Made by a program: the position numbers and the translations under genes
Source: Methylocystis silviterrae
GTDB lineage: Bacteria; Pseudomonadota; Alphaproteobacteria; Rhizobiales; Beijerinckiaceae
NCBI RefSeq assembly: GCF_013350005.1
Contig: NZ_JABVWW010000008.1
Location: 1-64,000, forward strand
Direction of reading: 5' to 3'
DNA: 64,000 nucleotides
Notes under the pieces: model-generated
Databases searched by the model: none
Told to the model about the DNA's origin: nothing
Seen by the model: the letters and a program-made list of their open reading frames with translations, nothing else
In this document: positions 1,287-51,983 of the stretch, in pieces
How the letters are laid out: each line of letters starts with the position of its first letter
How positions within the stretch are numbered: position 1 is the first letter of the stretch

Positions 1287-1595
1287 CTAGCAGCCTCCGC
1301 CGCTGACCCCCGGCGCGAGCTGCAGCGCGTCGCAGAGATTGCGCGACTGGAAATCGTCCATCATTTTTCGGGTGATGACGCTGGTAGAGCCCGGCACTTG
1401 CATGACGGGGGTTGGAGCCCCCGTCGGTCCGGTCACATAGTCGGCGAAATAGCCGTCGTCAGTATATGGCGGCGGCGGCGCGACGCGATGAACCCGGGCG
1501 TGCGCGCCGCGCACGCGTAACTCGGCAGCGGCGGCGGTTGTCAGACCAACCGTGGCGAGGACGATGAGCAGGAATAGGGCGACAGCCTTGCGCAT
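1287..1595 (-). CDS. Small secreted protein resembling a TonB-receptor plug fragment
   Basis: This 102-residue protein begins with a clear Sec signal peptide (MRKAVALFLLIVLATVGL, cleavage probably after TTAAAA). A short proline-rich stretch (APPPPYTD) follows. Residues 67-98 (VPGSTSVITRKMMDDFQSRN, then LCDALQLAPGVS) look like the first part of a TonB-dependent receptor plug. The complete receptor at 21.1 kb has DIPQSVTVLTRQQLDDRNSL and ALAYVPGV at the same place. The protein stops just after this motif with GGGC. No barrel follows, because the NUDIX gene ends 54 bp away. It could be a genuine small periplasmic protein or a remnant of a receptor gene. The signal peptide is clear; the function is unknown. 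Confidence 0.6.
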   Translation of the reverse strand: MRKAVALFLLIVLATVGLTTAAAAELRVRGAHARVHRVAPPPPYTDDGYFADYVTGPTGAPTPVMQVPGSTSVITRKMMDDFQSRNLCDALQLAPGVSGGGC

Positions 1596-1693
1596 GGCGT
1601 TGTCCTCCTGCCCGAAGCATATAGGGGTCCGGGGTCACAAGGAAGCAGGCCGGCAGCCGTAAAAGGCCGTGTAAAGCGCTGCTTAGCGCCAGC

Positions 1694-1906
1694 TCAGGCG
1701 GCGAGTTCGTCGCCCAGAAGCACCGCGGGCAGGCGGCGCTCGTCGAGACGCTCGACCGTGGCCGTCGGCTGCTGAGCGAACTGCTCCACCTCCAGCGCCG
1801 CGGCGACGGCGGAAATGCCGATCTCGCGGTAAAGCCGCGCGAGAAGGTCATGGGGATGGCCGTTGGATTGGGGCTCGTTAAACTCGACGGAATACTTGTC
1901 GGACAT
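1694..1906 (-). CDS. Small hypothetical protein
   Basis: A 70-residue acidic soluble ORF starting at ATG 1906. It has no signal peptide, membrane segment or recognised motif. The middle (LLARLYREIGISAVAAALEV) is probably helical and the end is LLGDELAA. Codon use is GC-rich and like its neighbours. It lies in the same orientation as the small secreted protein, about 100 bp upstream of it. No good ribosome binding site is visible, so it may or may not be expressed. I do not recognise the family. Confidence 0.45.
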   Translation of the reverse strand: MSDKYSVEFNEPQSNGHPHDLLARLYREIGISAVAAALEVEQFAQQPTATVERLDERRLPAVLLGDELAA

Positions 1907-2093
1907 GGGTGCGCTCGACGACAGGAGGGGAACTCAAGGGACGCTTTCCTAGGATTGTCCTCGGCGAGTTAACGCGCCGCTAAGGAACCGGCGCGGAGGC
2001 GCGCCCGCCCGACTTTTTTTCAAATGCGCGAGAACCGTTGCATTCGCCGTGAAATTGCGAAAAATACGCCCGAGCCGCCCCGTGGCGGCGGTC

Positions 2094-2888
2094 ATGCGAG
2101 TCTGTGAACCGATGCGACGCCATCTTCCGCCCGAGCCCTGGTCGAAAGTCGCGCTTTGGAGCCGACGGTTCGCGATTTTCGCCGCAACTGTGGCGATTTT
2201 GGCGATCCTTCTGGGGCGACTTGGCGCCCTTGACCCGGCGTCGGCGCTCGCGTCGCTTGGCGGCGCCATGGCCTTGGCGCTGATCGCGCTGCTTTTATTT
2301 TGCGCCGCTTGCAGCGTGATCTGGCGGACAGGACGGCGCGGAGCCGGCGCGGCGGCGACCGCGTTCGTCATCGCGGCGTTGACGCTCGGCTACCCCGCCT
2401 ATCTCGCTTTCGAGGCGGTGCGGCTGCCGGTGCTTTCCGACATTTCCACAGACGTCGCCGATCCTCCATATTTCTCCTTCTCCAAAGCCGCCTTCGAGGC
2501 GCGCAGCGGCTTCCAACCTCCTGGCATCCCGTCCCGCGCGCGGGAGGCGCAGCGGCCGGCCTATCCCGACGTCGAACCGATCGTCGTCGATCTCGACACG
2601 GACGAGGCCTATGCTCTGGTGCTGAAAACGGCCAAAGCCCGCGGCTGGACGCTCGTCGACAAGCGGCCGCCGGGCGGACGGAGCGGCGACGGCCATATCG
2701 ATTTCATCGACAAAACGCTCGTCATGGGATTTGACGACGACATCACCGTCCGCTTCAAGCCGCTGCCCGGTCAGACGCGCATCGATCTACGCTCAGCGTC
2801 GCGTTACGGACGCCATGACTTTGGCGTGAACGCCAAAAGAATCGCCGCCTTCGCCGAGGAACTCCAGTCGCAGCTCGACACGCGCTAG
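2094..2888 (+). CDS. DUF1499 family membrane protein
   Basis: A 264-residue protein with three hydrophobic segments in its first 115 residues (starting IFAATVAILAILLG, then ALALIALLLFCAACSVIW, then TAFVIAALTLGYPAYLAF). A C-terminal domain of the DUF1499 type follows: YPDVEPIVVDLDTDEAY, GHIDFIDKTLVMGFDDDITV and a terminal NAKRIAAFAEEL helix. DUF1499 proteins are common in alphaproteobacteria and have no proven function. An in-frame GTG at 2049 would add 15 residues and an ATG at 2112 would remove six; ATG 2094 is chosen as the middle option. The gene is separated by about 95 bp from pdhA and may have its own promoter. Confidence 0.75.
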   Translation: MRVCEPMRRHLPPEPWSKVALWSRRFAIFAATVAILAILLGRLGALDPASALASLGGAMALALIALLLFCAACSVIWRTGRRGAGAAATAFVIAALTLGYPAYLAFEAVRLPVLSDISTDVADPPYFSFSKAAFEARSGFQPPGIPSRAREAQRPAYPDVEPIVVDLDTDEAYALVLKTAKARGWTLVDKRPPGGRSGDGHIDFIDKTLVMGFDDDITVRFKPLPGQTRIDLRSASRYGRHDFGVNAKRIAAFAEELQSQLDTR

Positions 2889-2983
2889 CGCGCTCCCCAA
2901 ATTGAACGGCAGCGCGAGACGCTCGTTTTCGGCGGCGTCTTGGATTAGTCTGCACGGCAAAGCTTAGCGACGGGAGCGGTGAT

Positions 2984-3991
2984 ATGGTCGAGGAAAGCGG
3001 CGTCGTTCCAGCAAGCGCGCCCACGATTCCCCCCTTCACCCGCGAGCAGGAGCTCACCGCCTTTCGCGAAATGCTGCTCATCCGGCGCTTCGAGGAAAAG
3101 GCCGGACAGCTCTACGGCATGGGCGTCATCGGCGGATTCTGCCACCTTTACATCGGCCAGGAAGCCGTCGTCGTCGGCGTCAAGATGGCTGCCCGCGACG
3201 GCGACCAGTTCACCACGAGCTACCGCGACCATGGACATATGCTCGCCTCGGGGATGGAGCCCAGGCGCGTCATGGCGGAACTCGCCGGAAAGCGCGGCGG
3301 CTATTCCAAGGGCAAGGGCGGGTCGATGCACATGTTTTCGCGCGAAGCGAATTTCTATGGCGGGCATGGCATCGTCGGCGCGCCCGCGCCGATCGGCGCG
3401 GGAGTCGCTTTCGCTAACGCCTATCGCGGCGACGGCCGCGTATCTTTGACCTTTTTCGGAGAAGGCGCCGCCAACCAAGGCCAGGTCTACGAAGCCTTCA
3501 ACATGGCGTCGCTCTGGAAACTGCCGGTCGTTTTCATTGTCGAGAACAACCGTTATGCGATGGGCACGGAGATTTCCCGCGCCTCCGCGCAAATCGACCT
3601 CTCCAAACGCGGCGCGGCTTTCGGCATTCCGGGCAAGCAGATCGACGGCATGGACGTGCGCATCGTCAAGGCTACGGCGGACGAGGCGATCGAATGGTGC
3701 CGCGCCGGCAAGGGCCCCTATCTCATAGAGGCGCAGACCTATCGCTATCGCGGCCATTCGATGTCCGACCCCGCGAAATATCGCTCCAAGGAAGAAGTCC
3801 AAAAGATGCGCGAGGAGCATGATCCGATCGAGCAAGTCCGCGCGCGGCTGATCGCCGACGGCATGAGCGAGGACGAACTCAAGAAGATCGACGCCAATGC
3901 GCGCAAGATCGTCGCCGAAGCCGCGGATTTCGCCACTGCGGACAAGGAGCCGGACCCGAGTGAGTTGTGGACGGACGTGCTGGCGTCGTGA
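2984..3991 (+). CDS. pdhA: Pyruvate dehydrogenase E1 component, alpha subunit
   Basis: This 335-residue protein is the thiamine-diphosphate-binding alpha chain of E1, which decarboxylates pyruvate and acetylates the lipoyl group. The ThDP motif is visible as GEGAANQG (about residue 164) through IVENN (about 187). The phosphorylation-loop-like segment YRYRGHSMSDPAKYR near residue 250 is also typical, as are YRDHGHML and GRGGSMHMF-like stretches near the N-terminus. The length is normal. ATG 2984 is preceded by GGGAGCGG. pdhB starts 12 bp after its stop, so the two E1 chains are co-transcribed. No missing residues were noted. Confidence 0.95.
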   Translation: MVEESGVVPASAPTIPPFTREQELTAFREMLLIRRFEEKAGQLYGMGVIGGFCHLYIGQEAVVVGVKMAARDGDQFTTSYRDHGHMLASGMEPRRVMAELAGKRGGYSKGKGGSMHMFSREANFYGGHGIVGAPAPIGAGVAFANAYRGDGRVSLTFFGEGAANQGQVYEAFNMASLWKLPVVFIVENNRYAMGTEISRASAQIDLSKRGAAFGIPGKQIDGMDVRIVKATADEAIEWCRAGKGPYLIEAQTYRYRGHSMSDPAKYRSKEEVQKMREEHDPIEQVRARLIADGMSEDELKKIDANARKIVAEAADFATADKEPDPSELWTDVLAS

Positions 3992-46521: not shown

Positions 46522-47211
46522 ATGAACAGCAGTCTCGTCTCGGACATCGGCGCCGGAGTTTTCAGAACCGAGTTGACGCTCTTTTTCTCGACGTTCACGA
46601 CGCTGCTGGCGGTCATCAATCCTTTTGAGGTGCTACCGGTCTTCCTTCTGCTTCTGCGCGATAAGAGCAACCAGGAGCGCGGTCGCGTGGCCTTCATGGC
46701 CTGTCTCTATGCGTTGCTGCTGATCCTCTTCTTCTTGTTCTTTGGCGCGGTGATCTTAAAAATCTTCGGCGTCTCGCTCAGCATGGTGCGCATCGCCGGC
46801 GGGATCGTGCTGATGAAGATCGGCTTTGAACTTTTTTTACCCTCGTCGGACGGCGACGGAACGCCGGCGTTTGCCCGATCGACGGGCAATATCGCCTTCA
46901 TGCCGCTTGCGATGCCGCTCATGATCGGCCCCGGCCCGATCGCCACCGTGCTCGGGATGATGGCCACGGTGGAGCACTCGTCCCACGAGGCGTTGGCGTT
47001 CGGCGTCATCCTCGGCGCGATCTTTCTCGCCGTGGGCGTCACTTACGCGTGCCTCGCCTTCGCGACGCGGTTGACCACAACGCTGGGGCCGCTGGGGATT
47101 GACGCGGCGACCAGGATCGTCGGCTTCTTCGTCTCGGCGATGGGCGTATCGTTGATCTTCAACGGCGTCATGGACGCGCTTCGGTCGGCAGGCTTTGGCG
47201 GCTTGCATTAG
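46522..47211 (+). CDS. MarC family integral membrane protein
   Basis: A 229-residue inner-membrane protein with six helices. FFSTFTTLLAVINPFEVLPV, with the NPF motif, is the MarC N-terminus. RVAFMACLYALLLILFFLFF, VRIAGGIVLMKIGFELF, PLAMPLMIGPGPIATVLGMM (with the second PLxxPLxxGPG motif) and the final DAATRIVGFFVSAMGVSLIF complete the family. Despite the name, no drug-resistance role is proven. AAGG lies before ATG 46522. It converges on the lipase-fold gene 17 bp away. Confidence 0.9.
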   Translation: MNSSLVSDIGAGVFRTELTLFFSTFTTLLAVINPFEVLPVFLLLLRDKSNQERGRVAFMACLYALLLILFFLFFGAVILKIFGVSLSMVRIAGGIVLMKIGFELFLPSSDGDGTPAFARSTGNIAFMPLAMPLMIGPGPIATVLGMMATVEHSSHEALAFGVILGAIFLAVGVTYACLAFATRLTTTLGPLGIDAATRIVGFFVSAMGVSLIFNGVMDALRSAGFGGLH

Positions 47212-47228
47212 CCGCTCTTCGTGCAAGG

Positions 47229-48419
47229 CTAGAGGCTGCGCAGGGTCTCGCCGAGCCTCAGATAGATCTCCCGATGCGCGTCGCGCAGCCCGGGAACCCA
47301 TGGTTTGAGCCGGGCGCCGACGACCGCGTCGAAATGGTCGAAGCGTTGTCCGATGGCTTTGTCGAGATATTCGTAATACCAGCGCCCCGGCTTGAGTCTT
47401 TGGCGTTTGAAAACGCCTTCGCCTCCCACCGGCTCTTCCCGCGCCGTGAAGGGATATCTTTGCGAGATGACGCTCACCGCGCCATCATTGGGCCGCCACT
47501 GCGGCAGCGAAAGGTCGCCGCCGCCCCAACCGACGATCGGCGCCTTGGCGAAGTTCGCCTCGCGCGCCTGGTAGAGCGCCGGCTGCCAGAGAATGGGATG
47601 GATCGTCGGGTCGGGCCGCCAGGTCTTGGTGAAAAAGCCGTATGCGCGAACATGTGTGGCGTTGGTCACCAGCGACAGATAATAGGTGCCCGGATGCGAT
47701 CTGAACCGGGCGTTGGCCTTGCGGCAGCCCTGCAGCGTCATGTCGAAGGCGAGATTGTCCTCGCCGGCGACGAAGGCGCCAGCGTCCAGACGCGCCATCG
47801 CCGCTTTCGCGTCGGCTTCGCCGTCGGTCCATTGGTCGAGATGGAGATCGAAGGGCTTGCGCATGGCGCTCGGCACGCCGGCGGCCATTCCGAGAAAATT
47901 GAATGATTCCGCAATGAACCGGCTCGGCCTGCGCTTGAGCCGCCCGTCTTCACGGTCGCAGCCGAAGCCGTACGGCAGCAGTGAGCCGTTGATGGCGCCG
48001 GCGACGCTGATCACCCCTTCCACCCAGTCGGCGTTGGTTCCGCGCTCCCAGAAATCGCTTGCGAGCAGCGCCTGCAACTGCATGGCGGTCTGGGCGCCTG
48101 CGCCATGGCCGACGAGGATCACCGGGTTCTCCGCCGACCAACCGGGCGCAAAAGGGTCCGCATATTCGCGCGAATAGCGGGCGTGGCGGGCCTCATCGCT
48201 ATGCCGGGCGCCATAGTCCACGCGTCCGCCGGCAATCTGAGCGAATAGCTCGCAGGCGCGATCATGGAAGGAGCTGACCGGACCTACCTTCGCTTCGTGA
48301 ACCGCGAAGGGTTCGCCGAACTCATCGAGCGCGTCGCCCCAATAGGGAAGTCCGAACTCTTGAGGCCCCCAGCCGAAGAAATCATGCACGAAAATAATAT
48401 GAGTGGATTTGAGCGCCAT
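47229..48419 (-). CDS. Family I.5 lipase homologue with Gly in place of the catalytic Ser
   Basis: A 396-residue alpha/beta-hydrolase resembling the zinc-containing Geobacillus/Staphylococcus lipases. VHDFFGWGPQEFGLPYWGD, VGPVSSFHDRACELFAQIAG, GGRVDYGARHSDEARHARY and LDQW line up with that family. The zinc ligands appear kept (Asp53, His73, His79, Asp195), as do the catalytic Asp (NDG, Asp312) and His (DHFD, His362). The nucleophile elbow, expected AHSQGG, is GHGAGA: residue 106 is Gly (codon GGC, 48102-48104). Hydrolysis at the usual Ser is therefore not expected. No signal peptide is present. It is the last gene of an operon with a tyrosinase-like gene 42 bp upstream. Confidence 0.8.
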   Translation of the reverse strand: MALKSTHIIFVHDFFGWGPQEFGLPYWGDALDEFGEPFAVHEAKVGPVSSFHDRACELFAQIAGGRVDYGARHSDEARHARYSREYADPFAPGWSAENPVILVGHGAGAQTAMQLQALLASDFWERGTNADWVEGVISVAGAINGSLLPYGFGCDREDGRLKRRPSRFIAESFNFLGMAAGVPSAMRKPFDLHLDQWTDGEADAKAAMARLDAGAFVAGEDNLAFDMTLQGCRKANARFRSHPGTYYLSLVTNATHVRAYGFFTKTWRPDPTIHPILWQPALYQAREANFAKAPIVGWGGGDLSLPQWRPNDGAVSVISQRYPFTAREEPVGGEGVFKRQRLKPGRWYYEYLDKAIGQRFDHFDAVVGARLKPWVPGLRDAHREIYLRLGETLRSL

Positions 48420-48461
48420 CGCCGATCCGAAATTCGATAGAAAATCAAAGTGCTTCGGCGC

Positions 48462-49427
48462 TCAAATGAGCGCGTCATATTCATAAATTTCGCTCACGTC
48501 GAGCGTCTCGCGCGGAGTCGCGCTGCGACCGAGCGGCGAGCTGATCGGATCGTCGATGCGGTGACCCTTGAGATCCGCGCCGGCCTCCATATCGGGAACG
48601 TAGACGCGCCCATTTCGGGACATCCAGCTCTCCCAGAGGCGATCAATGTTGCAATGATTGAGAAAGAAAACCGGATCATTGGGCGACGAGCCAAGCAACA
48701 TCTCGCCGCCAATCCAGACGTGGACGAGATTGTGCATGGAGGTCGCGGAAACGCCGTCGTCGTTCATCCACCCTTCGATCCGATTGCGGAAGCTGTTCGC
48801 GTCGGCGTCCCAATCGGGCGAATCATAGGCCGGCAGCTCCAGCGCATTCGTCACATGCGCCGTTCTCGGCAGCGCGTCGGCGCTCACGCCAAAGGCGCGT
48901 CGGAGGCCGCGGTTCACCGAACGCAGCTCTCCGGAAATATTCGTGGAGATGCGCACTCTGAACGCGGACGGATCGCTTGCGCGAAACGCGAACGGGCCGG
49001 TAGCGACCGGATTTCCCTCGCCGCCCATGCAGTCGGCGCCCCAGATCGCAGCAGCGCTCTGCTCCTGTGGCGGCAGGTCGCCGTCTTCCGCCCAATCCCA
49101 ATAGGGCAGACCAAAATTCGCGTCGTTCAGAACCCGCTGGAGGTTCTGCTCGAAAACCATCAGCATCACACGGTGCCATGGCGCAAAAATTGGCCCGCGG
49201 TACGCCGAGTTTCGCTGCGCGGGGTTTCTGGGCGGCGTCTCGATCATCATTGCGGTGACGTGCCAGACCACGAAAAGATCGTAGGTGCTCACTGAGCGCG
49301 CCGCGCCGGGAATGCCGAATTCATCGGTCGCTCGGCCGGACGCCTCATTTTTCAAGAGTTTGACGCCTTCAATATATTGGTCTCGAACCCCTGGGTTCGT
49401 TGAAATGTTTCTTCGGACGACGGCCAT
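48462..49427 (-). CDS. Tyrosinase-family protein with an altered CuA site
   Basis: A 321-residue type-3 copper protein of the common central tyrosinase domain. CuA region: His56 (LFVVWHVTAM) and His85 (FAPWHRVMLMVFEQNL). Between them the family has a His nine residues before the PWH histidine, as in AHxGPxFLPWHR; here it is Tyr76 in SAYRGPIFAPWH (codon TAC, 49202-49200). CuB region: His232 and His236 (MHNLVHVWIGGEM) and His258 (DPVFFLNHCNIDRLWESW) are intact. No signal peptide is seen. AGGAGAG precedes ATG 49427. It lies between the HCH protein and the lipase-fold gene. Monophenolase or diphenolase activity is doubtful without the CuA His. Confidence 0.85.
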   Translation of the reverse strand: MAVVRRNISTNPGVRDQYIEGVKLLKNEASGRATDEFGIPGAARSVSTYDLFVVWHVTAMMIETPPRNPAQRNSAYRGPIFAPWHRVMLMVFEQNLQRVLNDANFGLPYWDWAEDGDLPPQEQSAAAIWGADCMGGEGNPVATGPFAFRASDPSAFRVRISTNISGELRSVNRGLRRAFGVSADALPRTAHVTNALELPAYDSPDWDADANSFRNRIEGWMNDDGVSATSMHNLVHVWIGGEMLLGSSPNDPVFFLNHCNIDRLWESWMSRNGRVYVPDMEAGADLKGHRIDDPISSPLGRSATPRETLDVSEIYEYDALI

Positions 49428-49464
49428 CGTCTCTCTCCTGAAAAATCAATGCTCGCCTGAAAAA

Positions 49465-49893
49465 TCAGTGCTCGTGTCTTGCACCTTTCTTGGCGGCGGG
49501 CCTGCTTTTGCGCGCAGGAGCGGGCCGGCGCTTGCGGCTCGCTGCGGGCCGGCTCTTTGTCCGGGCCGGCTTTCGCTCGAACTCCTCGGGAAATCCGTCG
49601 ATCAGCGCCCGCACCATGTCGACCGCCGACGCGGTCTGGTAGTTCGGCAATGAATGACAATGAACCTGGCCGGAGGCGTCGACGCCGAGCGGCGCGCGGA
49701 TTTTCCTTCCGTCGACCAGGATGTTGTAGGTCGTGACGATTTCGATCTCGTGGCCGCGATAGCTATCCTTGCGCACTGACTGCGCGCCGCCCGCGCCATG
49801 GCCGTCGTGCGCTGGCGCTTTGTCGCGGGCGCGCGTGAGATAGTCGCTGAGTTTGCGAGGGGCGGCGCCCGTCGTGAGCTTCTTGGTCTCCAT
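49465..49893 (-). CDS. Small protein with an HCH motif and a basic tail, tyrosinase operon
   Basis: A 142-residue protein. Residues 1-45 are flexible and charged (DGHGAGG at 30-36). Residues 46-105 look folded: RGHEIEIVTTYNILVDGRKI, then GVDASGQVHCHSLPNYQTAS and AVDMVRALIDGFPEEF. His78-Cys79-His80 could bind copper. Residues 106-139 are Arg/Lys/Ala/Pro-rich and resemble a histone-H1 or PhaF-like tail. I do not recognise the family. ATG 49893 is chosen because GGAGAG lies just upstream. It is the first gene of the three-gene operon, 37 bp before the tyrosinase gene. A copper-delivery (caddie) role like MelC1 is inference only. Confidence 0.65.
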   Translation of the reverse strand: METKKLTTGAAPRKLSDYLTRARDKAPAHDGHGAGGAQSVRKDSYRGHEIEIVTTYNILVDGRKIRAPLGVDASGQVHCHSLPNYQTASAVDMVRALIDGFPEEFERKPARTKSRPAASRKRRPAPARKSRPAAKKGARHEH

Positions 49894-50186
49894 AAGCTCT
49901 CCGCACAATTCCCGTTATGCAAATCCGACGAAGCTGTAGGCGCGAAGGCTTTAAGTGCTCGAAAAATCTACAAACTTCCGTCGAACGTTCGCCTCATCAA
50001 AACGGATTGGATTGGAAATTTTCCACCAGCATTATGACGCAGCCAATGGACAGTGATATCGAGTGAATTCCCAAGGCGTTAGAATTGATGAATTATTTGC
50101 GCCGCTCGGAGAGTCCCGCGCTCATCGCGATCGGAAGAGCTTGCGTCGCTTGCCGGCGAGGCTTAGCGATTCGATTTGAGGCCTCA

Positions 50187-51983
50187 ATGTCCGATTCGAT
50201 GGTTCCCGCCTTTCTTGGGGTCGAGCGCTCCGTGCTCGGTCGACGTTGGCGCGGGCGGCTCGACGCCAGAGGCGAGGCGCAGGCGCTCGCGCTGACCCAG
50301 GCGCATGGCATCGACGATTTCCTTGCGCGGGTGATCGCCGGGCGCGGCGTTACGGTCGCCGACGCCGCTGGCTATCTCGATCCCAAGCTGCGCGACCTCC
50401 TGCCGGACCCGTCGTCGCTGCGCGACATGGACGCCGCAACGAACCGGCTCGCGGACGCGATTGAAAAGTCCGAGCAGATCGCCGTTTTTGGCGACTATGA
50501 TGTCGACGGCGCCTGCTCCTCCGCTTTGCTCATCGACTTTTGGCGCGCGGCCGGCGCGCCGGAGCCCTTGCTCCATATTCCCGACCGGATCATCGAGGGC
50601 TATGGGCCGAACGTCGAGGCGATCCGCGATCTCGCGGCGCGCGGCGCGACTCTGTTGGCGACCGTCGACTGCGGGACCTCAAGTCACGAGGCGTTCGCCG
50701 TCGCGCGCGCGCTTGGCCTCGATGTGATCGTCCTCGACCATCATCAGGCACCGGAAATCCTGCCGGATGCGCTGGTCGTCAACCCCAACCGGCTTGATGA
50801 TCTTTCGGGGCAGGGGGCGCTCTGCGCCGCAGGGGTCGTTTTTCTTGTCCTCGTCGGATTGTCGAGGACGCTGCGCGCGCGCGGCTGGTGGAGCGACGAT
50901 CGACCGGAGCCGGATCTTCTCGCCGCGCTCGATCTCGTCGCGCTGGCGACAGTCGCCGACGTCTCGCCGCTGGCGCGGCTCAACAGGGCGCTCGTCGCCA
51001 AGGGTCTGATGGTGATGGCGGCGCGATCCCGTCCGGGGCTCGCCGCGCTGATGGACGCCGCCCGTTTGGATGGCCCGCCGCGCGCCTATCATCTTGGCTT
51101 CGCGCTCGGGCCGCGGATTAACGCCGGGGGTCGGATCGGCGACGCTGGCCTCGGCGCGAGGCTTCTCACCCTCGCTGACGGCGCGGAAGCGCGTCGCATC
51201 GCCAACGAACTGGACCGGCTGAATGGCGAACGACAGGTCGTCGAAAGGATGATTTTGGAGCAGGCGGTCGCCGAGGCGGAAGCGCAAGTGGCGGGCTCCA
51301 ATCGCCTGTCCTGTCTCGTCGTGCATGGGCAGGATTGGCATCCGGGCGTTGTCGGGTTGATCGCATCACGCTTAAAGGAACGCTTTAACACTCCAGCATT
51401 TGTTATTGCTTTCAATGGAGAATATGGAACAGGTTCGGGTAGGAGTTTAAGTGGTGTCGACCTCGGAGCGGCGGTGCGCCGCGCCGTCGATCTGGGCTTG
51501 GCGGTGAAGGGTGGCGGCCATGCGATGGCCGCCGGCGTGACTTTGGCCCGCGACAAGATCGACGACTTTCGCGCCTTTCTCGACGAGGCGCTGGCGGCGT
51601 CCGTCGAAGCCGCGCGTCTCGACGACGCGCTGGTTGTCGATGCGGCAGTCGCCGGACGAGGAGTCTGTCTCGAACTGCTGCGACGGGTGGAGCGAGCCGG
51701 TCCATTCGGGCAGGGCAACCCCGAACCTCTGTTTGCTCTGCCCGAGCAGCAGGTCACATTCGCTCAGACGGTTGGGGCCGATCATGTGCGCGCCCGTTTG
51801 CGTTCACGCGACGGCGCGACCGTTGACGCCATCGCCTTTCGCGCCGTGCATTCGCCGCTGGGCGAAGCGCTCTTGAGGGGGGACGGGGCGCAGCTTCACG
51901 TCGCGGCGAAACTGTCGCGCAATGTCTTTCGCGGCATCGAGCGCGTCGAGACGCGAATCGTCGATCTCGCGCGCGTTCAATGA
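50187..51983 (+). CDS. recJ: Single-stranded-DNA-specific exonuclease RecJ
   Basis: A 598-residue 5'-3' exonuclease of recombination and mismatch repair. The DHH domain has VFGDYDVDGACSSALLIDFW, ATVDCGTSSHEAFA and VIVLDHHQAPEILPDALVVN. GPRINAGGRIGDAGLGARLL is the next conserved block. The DHHA1 part has VVGLIASRLKERFNTPAFVI, then GTGSGRSLSGVDLG and VKGGGHAMAAGVTL. ATG 50187 is chosen; the frame upstream has no family match. The stretch 51371-51450 is unusually AT-rich (31 of 80 bases G or C by hand count) although the protein stays normal. It stands alone in the window. Confidence 0.95.
   Translation: MSDSMVPAFLGVERSVLGRRWRGRLDARGEAQALALTQAHGIDDFLARVIAGRGVTVADAAGYLDPKLRDLLPDPSSLRDMDAATNRLADAIEKSEQIAVFGDYDVDGACSSALLIDFWRAAGAPEPLLHIPDRIIEGYGPNVEAIRDLAARGATLLATVDCGTSSHEAFAVARALGLDVIVLDHHQAPEILPDALVVNPNRLDDLSGQGALCAAGVVFLVLVGLSRTLRARGWWSDDRPEPDLLAALDLVALATVADVSPLARLNRALVAKGLMVMAARSRPGLAALMDAARLDGPPRAYHLGFALGPRINAGGRIGDAGLGARLLTLADGAEARRIANELDRLNGERQVVERMILEQAVAEAEAQVAGSNRLSCLVVHGQDWHPGVVGLIASRLKERFNTPAFVIAFNGEYGTGSGRSLSGVDLGAAVRRAVDLGLAVKGGGHAMAAGVTLARDKIDDFRAFLDEALAASVEAARLDDALVVDAAVAGRGVCLELLRRVERAGPFGQGNPEPLFALPEQQVTFAQTVGADHVRARLRSRDGATVDAIAFRAVHSPLGEALLRGDGAQLHVAAKLSRNVFRGIERVETRIVDLARVQ

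Follow-up and report, generated by a model that had tools for sequence, protein, structure and literature searches.

Three closely spaced genes on the minus strand of a Methylocystis silviterrae contig (NZ_JABVWW010000008.1, assembly GCF_013350005.1), at positions 47,229 to 49,893 of the 64,000-nucleotide stretch analysed here and referred to as the window, encode a small protein, a tyrosinase-family protein and a lipase-fold protein without the catalytic serine. Caddie proteins have been described for Streptomyces tyrosinases (PMC9454253, PMC8375020), and the core of the present operon is a two-gene unit of a probable caddie-like protein and a tyrosinase, behind which a Methylocystis-specific serine-less lipase is placed. 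Taken as a whole, the explanation that we favour and regard as fairly probable combines this core unit with a lipase-fold protein acting as a binder and with a tyrosine at tyrosinase position 76 that is private to this genome. As the initial annotation had read from the letters, all three genes lie on the minus strand with gaps of 37 bp (small gene/tyrosinase) and 42 bp (tyrosinase/lipase), the small protein has an HCH motif and a C-terminal tail rich in Lys/Arg, and the tyrosinase and lipase genes encode Tyr76 and Gly106, respectively. The features are as follows.

49465..49893, minus strand: small gene, encoding a probable caddie-like copper chaperone of 142 residues from ATG (open reading frame, gene position, hhalign and fold comparison)
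49588..49767, minus strand: residues 43-102 of the small protein, forming the caddie-like core aligned to MelC1 (hhalign columns 43-102; confident AlphaFold2 part)
49654..49662, minus strand: HCH motif of the small protein, residues 78-80 (HxH in 67/78 relatives; putative copper binding)
48462..49427, minus strand: tyrosinase-family gene, 321 residues, PF00264 (Pfam, PDB and genome searches)
49200..49202, minus strand: tyrosinase codon 76, TAC (Tyr), where relatives have CAC/CAT (His, second CuA ligand)
47229..48419, minus strand: lipase-fold gene without catalytic serine, 396 residues, Lip_C PF24708 (Pfam, PDB and genome searches)
48102..48104, minus strand: lipase codon 106, GGC, which puts Gly where lipases have the nucleophile
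48381..48383, minus strand: lipase codon 13, GAT (Asp), where Ser-type homologues have Gly

The association of the small gene with tyrosinases was followed in a set of named loci comprising the best 80 of 87 relatives, with phyla and lifestyles taken from record titles, metagenome bins included, and with two identical copies from one genome (L136 and L138) counted as two loci. In 79/80 of these loci the small gene directly precedes the tyrosinase, both being on one strand, and in the 80th (L113) the tyrosinase starts at base 1 of the contig. The loci span about ten phyla, namely Pseudomonadota, Actinomycetota, Planctomycetota, Nitrospirota, Chloroflexota, Verrucomicrobiota, Acidobacteriota, Zixibacteria and Myxococcota, plus an archaeon. 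The tyrosinase occurs without the lipase in 72 of the 80 loci, 71 of which have the small gene. Among 298 genomes of the same family, all 15 strong matches to the small protein adjoin a tyrosinase, and no tyrosinase lies within 1.5 kb of the four weak matches (E 1e-4 to 8e-4); in 349 genomes of the phylum, the small-protein profile matches the window and one other genome, there too with a tyrosinase next door, and a plasmid search returned no small-protein match. By title, ten of the 80 loci are from methanotrophs, L079 being an eleventh through its genome match, and ten are from ammonia or nitrite oxidisers (L085-L088, L090, L092-L094, L097 and L122), a possible enrichment; since the query was itself a methanotroph protein, only the latter count is informative.

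The small protein has no Pfam or NCBIfam match over the curated cut-offs, and as MelC1 cut-offs are missed it is called caddie-like here and not filed as MelC1. Its profile was compared by hhalign with a MelC1 profile made of proteins from the genomes of Streptomyces-type loci together with L161, giving a probability of 95.8 and a score of 50.6, against 19.3 for the best of 200 column shuffles and 11.8 for the reversed profile; without the bridging row L161 the values were 91.1 and 39.3, against 22.4 (best of 200 shuffles) and 12.7 (reversed). L161 (positions 1465-3244) is from Nitrosovibrio tenuis, whose genome also holds L085, and carries another tyrosinase of that genome, preceded by a short caddie-like protein whose match to MelC1 stays under the cut-off (E 0.0016). 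Against the PDB, the first row for L161 was a designed ankyrin protein (E 5.8e-8, over several weak repeats), taken as compositional, and a MelC entry came next (E 6.6e-4). The AlphaFold2 model of the small protein has a core at about residues 37-105 with block means of 79-93, for an overall mean predicted local distance difference test (pLDDT) of 73 and a predicted template modelling score of 0.49. A tree was built with 41 of the 81 family rows retained. In it the paired tyrosinases group together (support 93/96), with a branch setting them apart in 94% of bootstrap trees, and this group joins the MelC2 tyrosinases and a single long-branched row (96/97). Together, these results make a caddie-like copper chaperone, remotely related to MelC1, the probable identity of the small protein, in keeping with the metal-loading role first proposed for it.

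Within the small-protein family, counted over 78 rows that leave out the window and L077, whose small gene is cut by a contig end, the conserved strand reads GxVHxHxLPNY, and Gly75, Pro83 and Ser89 are present in 78/78. The HCH motif singled out in the initial annotation is present in the window and is one form of a more general HxH (67/78 rows, 34 with HCH and 32 with HYH). By the hhalign register, His78 and His80 would lie on the strand face that carries MelC1 Tyr98, towards the tyrosinase. In a search for twin-arginine translocation (Tat) signals, an RR-type string was found near 6/79 small genes, the window's not among them, with the relatives' start codons not checked singly; as no Tat signal is seen in the window small protein, the pair is probably cytoplasmic. 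When the small-protein profile of 70 members is compared with PDB sequences, the top match is the uncharacterised NE1242 (2jv8; E 0.0093, over the core), presumably from Nitrosomonas europaea, which may be a caddie-like protein. A narrower profile gave one capsid match in the PDB (E 1.1), which was ignored.

The tyrosinase matches PF00264 with E 8.1e-39 (134.6 bits against a cut-off of 22.6), its best PDB matches are long multi-domain haemocyanins followed by bacterial tyrosinases, and its own genome holds one tyrosinase match at E 1e-3. Five of its six copper-binding histidines are in place, the sixth position being Tyr76, whereas all six are found in 80/80 relatives; the other five histidines, Glu218 and Asn233 are each present in 80/80 loci, the latter two being, we assume, the pair linked to monophenol use. 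By its motif (AHRGPxFxPWHR beside GHRSPSFLPWHR of MelC2 proteins), position 76 matches His54 in the Streptomyces enzyme, which ligates CuA and has been reported in two conformations (PMC6312201). Residue 76 is His in 14 relatives from family genomes and in all 80 named loci, which without overlaps makes 84 other distinct loci, operon-bearing Methylocystis included, and Tyr is found in the window only. The seed search patterns contain His56 and His85 and not residue 76, so that the count at this position is unbiased by them. The frame-broken L016 (genome G292), a diverged relative of 40% identity with an in-frame TAA and probably a broken copy, was not aligned at position 76. The window codon TAC is one base from the CAC/CAT of close relatives. 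Where the other ten close sequences all agree, the window has three private changes, Gly67Arg, His76Tyr and Ser199Pro, and Pro199 also occurs in 10/80 wider loci. The median ratio of non-synonymous to synonymous substitution rates (dN/dS) is 0.110, with the window copy like its relatives, and a general decay of the window tyrosinase is accordingly not supported. Tyr76 as a family trait was rejected in view of these His-bearing loci, an outcome that the initial annotation had named in advance as pointing to a local mutation. Judged from the alignments, Tyr76 is a recent private missense change or a base-call error, and the family is probably one of ordinary, catalytic type-3 copper enzymes.

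The lipase-fold protein matches Lip_C PF24708 (E 3.1e-21) and, over most of its length, PDB 8yye (E 2.4e-34); the matched triacylglycerol lipases (8yye, 5ah1 and 5ah0) are of the family I.5 type. It retains, as had been noticed at the outset, the zinc, Asp and His residues: Asp53, His73, His79 and Asp195, which we take to be the zinc-site residues, align with identical letters in 8yye, and Asp312 and His362, presumably the catalytic Asp/His, are invariant in the lipase alignment. Gly106 is found in 12/12 family genomes of the close type and in L077, and thus in 13/13, whereas Ser occupies this position in 9/9 homologues of 47-53% identity, none of which has the pair within 1.5 kb on each side; for five of them the inspection reached about 7 kb, again without the pair. 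Five sites are invariant within and different between the two classes, namely 13 (Asp/Gly), 89, 106 (Gly/Ser), 143 and 147, in a comparison made without the disrupted L051 and without the part of L042 that follows residue 290; residue 13 presumably adjoins the oxyanion hole. The median dN/dS is 0.094 over 55 pairs, L042 being left out of the dN/dS analysis, and this purifying selection implies that the gene is maintained. An error or pseudogene as the source of Gly106 was rejected, given the 13 genomes and the purifying selection, and from its conservation the substitution is read as old and fixed; the protein is therefore not filed as a lipase. Of the two residues whose conservation the initial annotation proposed to check, Gly106 is fixed and Tyr76 is not, and the two alterations are of unrelated origin. 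A structure model of the lipase from eight near-identical rows had a mean pLDDT of 36 and was not used.

Co-occurrence, which the initial annotation had proposed to check across genomes, is borne out within one genus. The three genes are contiguous by coordinates in 11/298 same-family genomes, all of the window's genus and the window's own included, the lipase being cut by a contig end in one of them (G226), and L077 is a twelfth genome with this arrangement. The closest named relatives of the window are Methylocystis contigs. A conserved third gene was also looked for in the other loci: among same-strand neighbours at up to 120 bp in crude gene calls, the only clusters were Methylocystis lipases (7), three Ruegeria upstream genes and two nitrifier upstream genes, the caller having missed the L081 lipase that locus inspection shows. 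With a threshold of E 1e-3, lipase matches occur in 23/298 genomes of the family; with one of E 1e-20, no genome but the window's was matched in samples of 385 genomes of the class and 327 of the order, with few candidates scored per genome. The linkage of the three genes is beyond chance. The operon is flanked by recJ (50085-51983) and marC (46522-47211).

Several observations weigh against this reading of the genes and have to be set beside the evidence above. MelC1 is reached below threshold by 4/70 members of the small-protein family with Pfam PF06236 (best E 0.14) and by 1/70 with NCBIfam NF047833 (best E 0.16), and PF06236 at E 1 finds nothing in three genomes (G298, G308 and G312) whose loci carry the small gene. 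The fold comparison favours a caddie, though weakly: the ten best Foldseek matches in the PDB are all caddies, at E 0.25 or worse and a root-mean-square deviation of 12-13 Å, and the top 20 VIA-align rows, likewise caddies, have low Z values of 4.1-4.5 (50-53 residues, 2.0-2.6 Å; next row Z 3.2), which, according to the tool's own warning, may reflect a common arrangement; the non-caddie rows were not interpreted. MelC1 Tyr98, the residue that enters the active site of its tyrosinase, aligns with Asn84, the adjacent Tyr85 being kept in 55/78 rows and a Tyr at either position in 58/78. The most frequent sub-threshold Pfam match, in more members than MelC1, is the C-glycoside deglycosidase beta subunit (CGDB; 11/70, best E 0.0039), and the small protein could on this basis be a different tyrosinase partner, such as a subunit related to CGDB. 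This we consider distinctly improbable, given the MelC1 profile match far over the shuffles, caddies as the top fold matches, the melC1-melC2-like gene order and the position of the tyrosinase clade beside MelC2. As to the lipase, genome G292, of the same genus, holds a Gly-type copy beside recJ without the small gene and the tyrosinase, which implies that the lipase may be unrelated to the pair. The 396 bp between recJ and the lipase in this genome (L183:7605-8001) by eye keep window-like upstream sequence and the last tyrosinase codons, a gap resembling a deletion scar, so that this genome has probably lost the pair and retained the lipase.

That the lipase gene is a neighbour by chance, placed as an operon member would be and yet functionally unconnected with the pair, we hold to be quite possible, if a little less likely than not. 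The recJ-adjacent copy of G292 speaks for it, as do the Ser-type homologue that stands divergent beside recJ without the pair in G215, also of this genus, and the fact that no other lineage among the 80 loci has a lipase beside the pair; it has to contend with the 42 bp spacing, with the lack of a terminator-like site on the minus strand (the single such site in 47150-50150 being on the plus strand), with contiguity in 12 genomes, and with a Gly class that tracks linkage to the pair except in G292. The lipase is linked to the pair yet not dependent on it, and is not an obligatory partner. It may instead be an active enzyme with a new chemistry through Asp13, Asp312 and His362, perhaps acting on the tyrosinase product. 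Asp13 and Gly106 are invariant in the linked class and differ from the residues of the Ser class, Asp312 and His362 are invariant in the lipase alignment, and the gene is under purifying selection; Asp13 and Gly106 may, however, stem from a single event in one lineage, and we know of no enzyme among the homologues with this pair, so that such a chemistry appears unlikely. That the tyrosinase and the lipase both gave up catalysis for a part in the handling of copper or zinc, in structure or in sensing, as the initial annotation suggested from the two lost residues, agrees with each window protein being without one catalytic residue and with the fixation of Gly106. It is, however, highly improbable and finds no support, with Tyr76 private and present in none of the other distinct loci, operon-bearing Methylocystis relatives included.

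In the favoured explanation, a core caddie-tyrosinase unit with a Methylocystis lipase-fold binder behind it, the caddie-like protein would bind the apo-tyrosinase, hold its site shut until copper is loaded, hand the copper in through the HxH strand and then leave. The tyrosinase, probably a cytoplasmic type-3 copper enzyme, would turn phenols into ortho-quinones. In Methylocystis, a family I.5-like lipase gene by recJ stands behind the pair, with its nucleophilic Ser changed to Gly, and its product would most likely bind a hydrophobic or phenolic ligand without hydrolysis, which is the weakest step of the proposal. Tyr76, a recent private change or else a base-call error, would leave this genome alone with an impaired copper site. 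Pairing, homologies, residue conservation and purifying selection are seen directly in the sequences, from which copper transfer, phenol oxidation, cellular location and ligand binding are deduced as probable roles. Monooxygenases of methane and ammonia oxidisers acting on aromatics form phenols, and the clearing of these could, as a guess, be a reason for the unit in such organisms. A bolder version, in which the Gly106/Asp13 protein carries phenols or quinones, or is an enzyme of a new kind that needs no serine, and forms, with the cytoplasmic caddie-tyrosinase, a methanotroph module shielding copper-dependent methane oxidation from co-oxidation phenols, is a long shot.

The operon looks mosaic, in that the synonymous distance of the window to two genomes, G267 (L032, L008) and G261 (L033, L009), is uneven across 47229-49427, at 0.12-0.16 for the lipase and 0.45-0.58 for the tyrosinase; this mismatch suggests recombination between neighbouring genes. 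A promoter search gave one plus-strand match, near chance level, and Rfam had no match in 47000-50400 at gathering scores.

A literature search over titles and abstract openings, covering few subscription journals, returned no description of the caddie-like family or of the three-gene operon, and one on NE1242/2JV8 returned nothing relevant. A list of wetland bacteria that produce tyrosinase includes Methylocystis rosea (PMC9454253), and a Methylocaldum study takes the lack of a canonical melC1 as an argument for another melanin (PMC10974252). If the present reading is true, a caddie-like family that has gone unrecognised, and that accompanies tyrosinases across about ten phyla, would widen the caddie class, would span methane and ammonia or nitrite oxidisers and suggest phenol oxidation inside such cells, and would show which gene to co-express for active enzymes; the fixed Ser-to-Gly change would offer a clean case of lipase-fold reuse.

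Compared with known systems, the pair resembles the Streptomyces MelC1-MelC2 operon in having a small gene directly upstream of a tyrosinase of similar length, in remote profile homology, in caddies being the best fold matches, albeit with weak scores, and in tyrosinases that fall beside MelC2 in the tree. It differs in that the small protein stays under the MelC1 cut-offs, an HxH strand replaces MelC1 residues and the Tyr98 position is not kept; moreover, MelC1 has a Tat signal through which the complex is exported (PMC8375020), and none is seen in the small protein of the window. NE1242 (2jv8) shares a core sequence match with the small-protein profile, at a marginal E. The third protein, like family I.5-type lipases, has Asp53, His73, His79 and Asp195 as identical letters and keeps Asp312, and unlike them it has Gly106 for the nucleophilic Ser of GHSxG and Asp13 for Gly.

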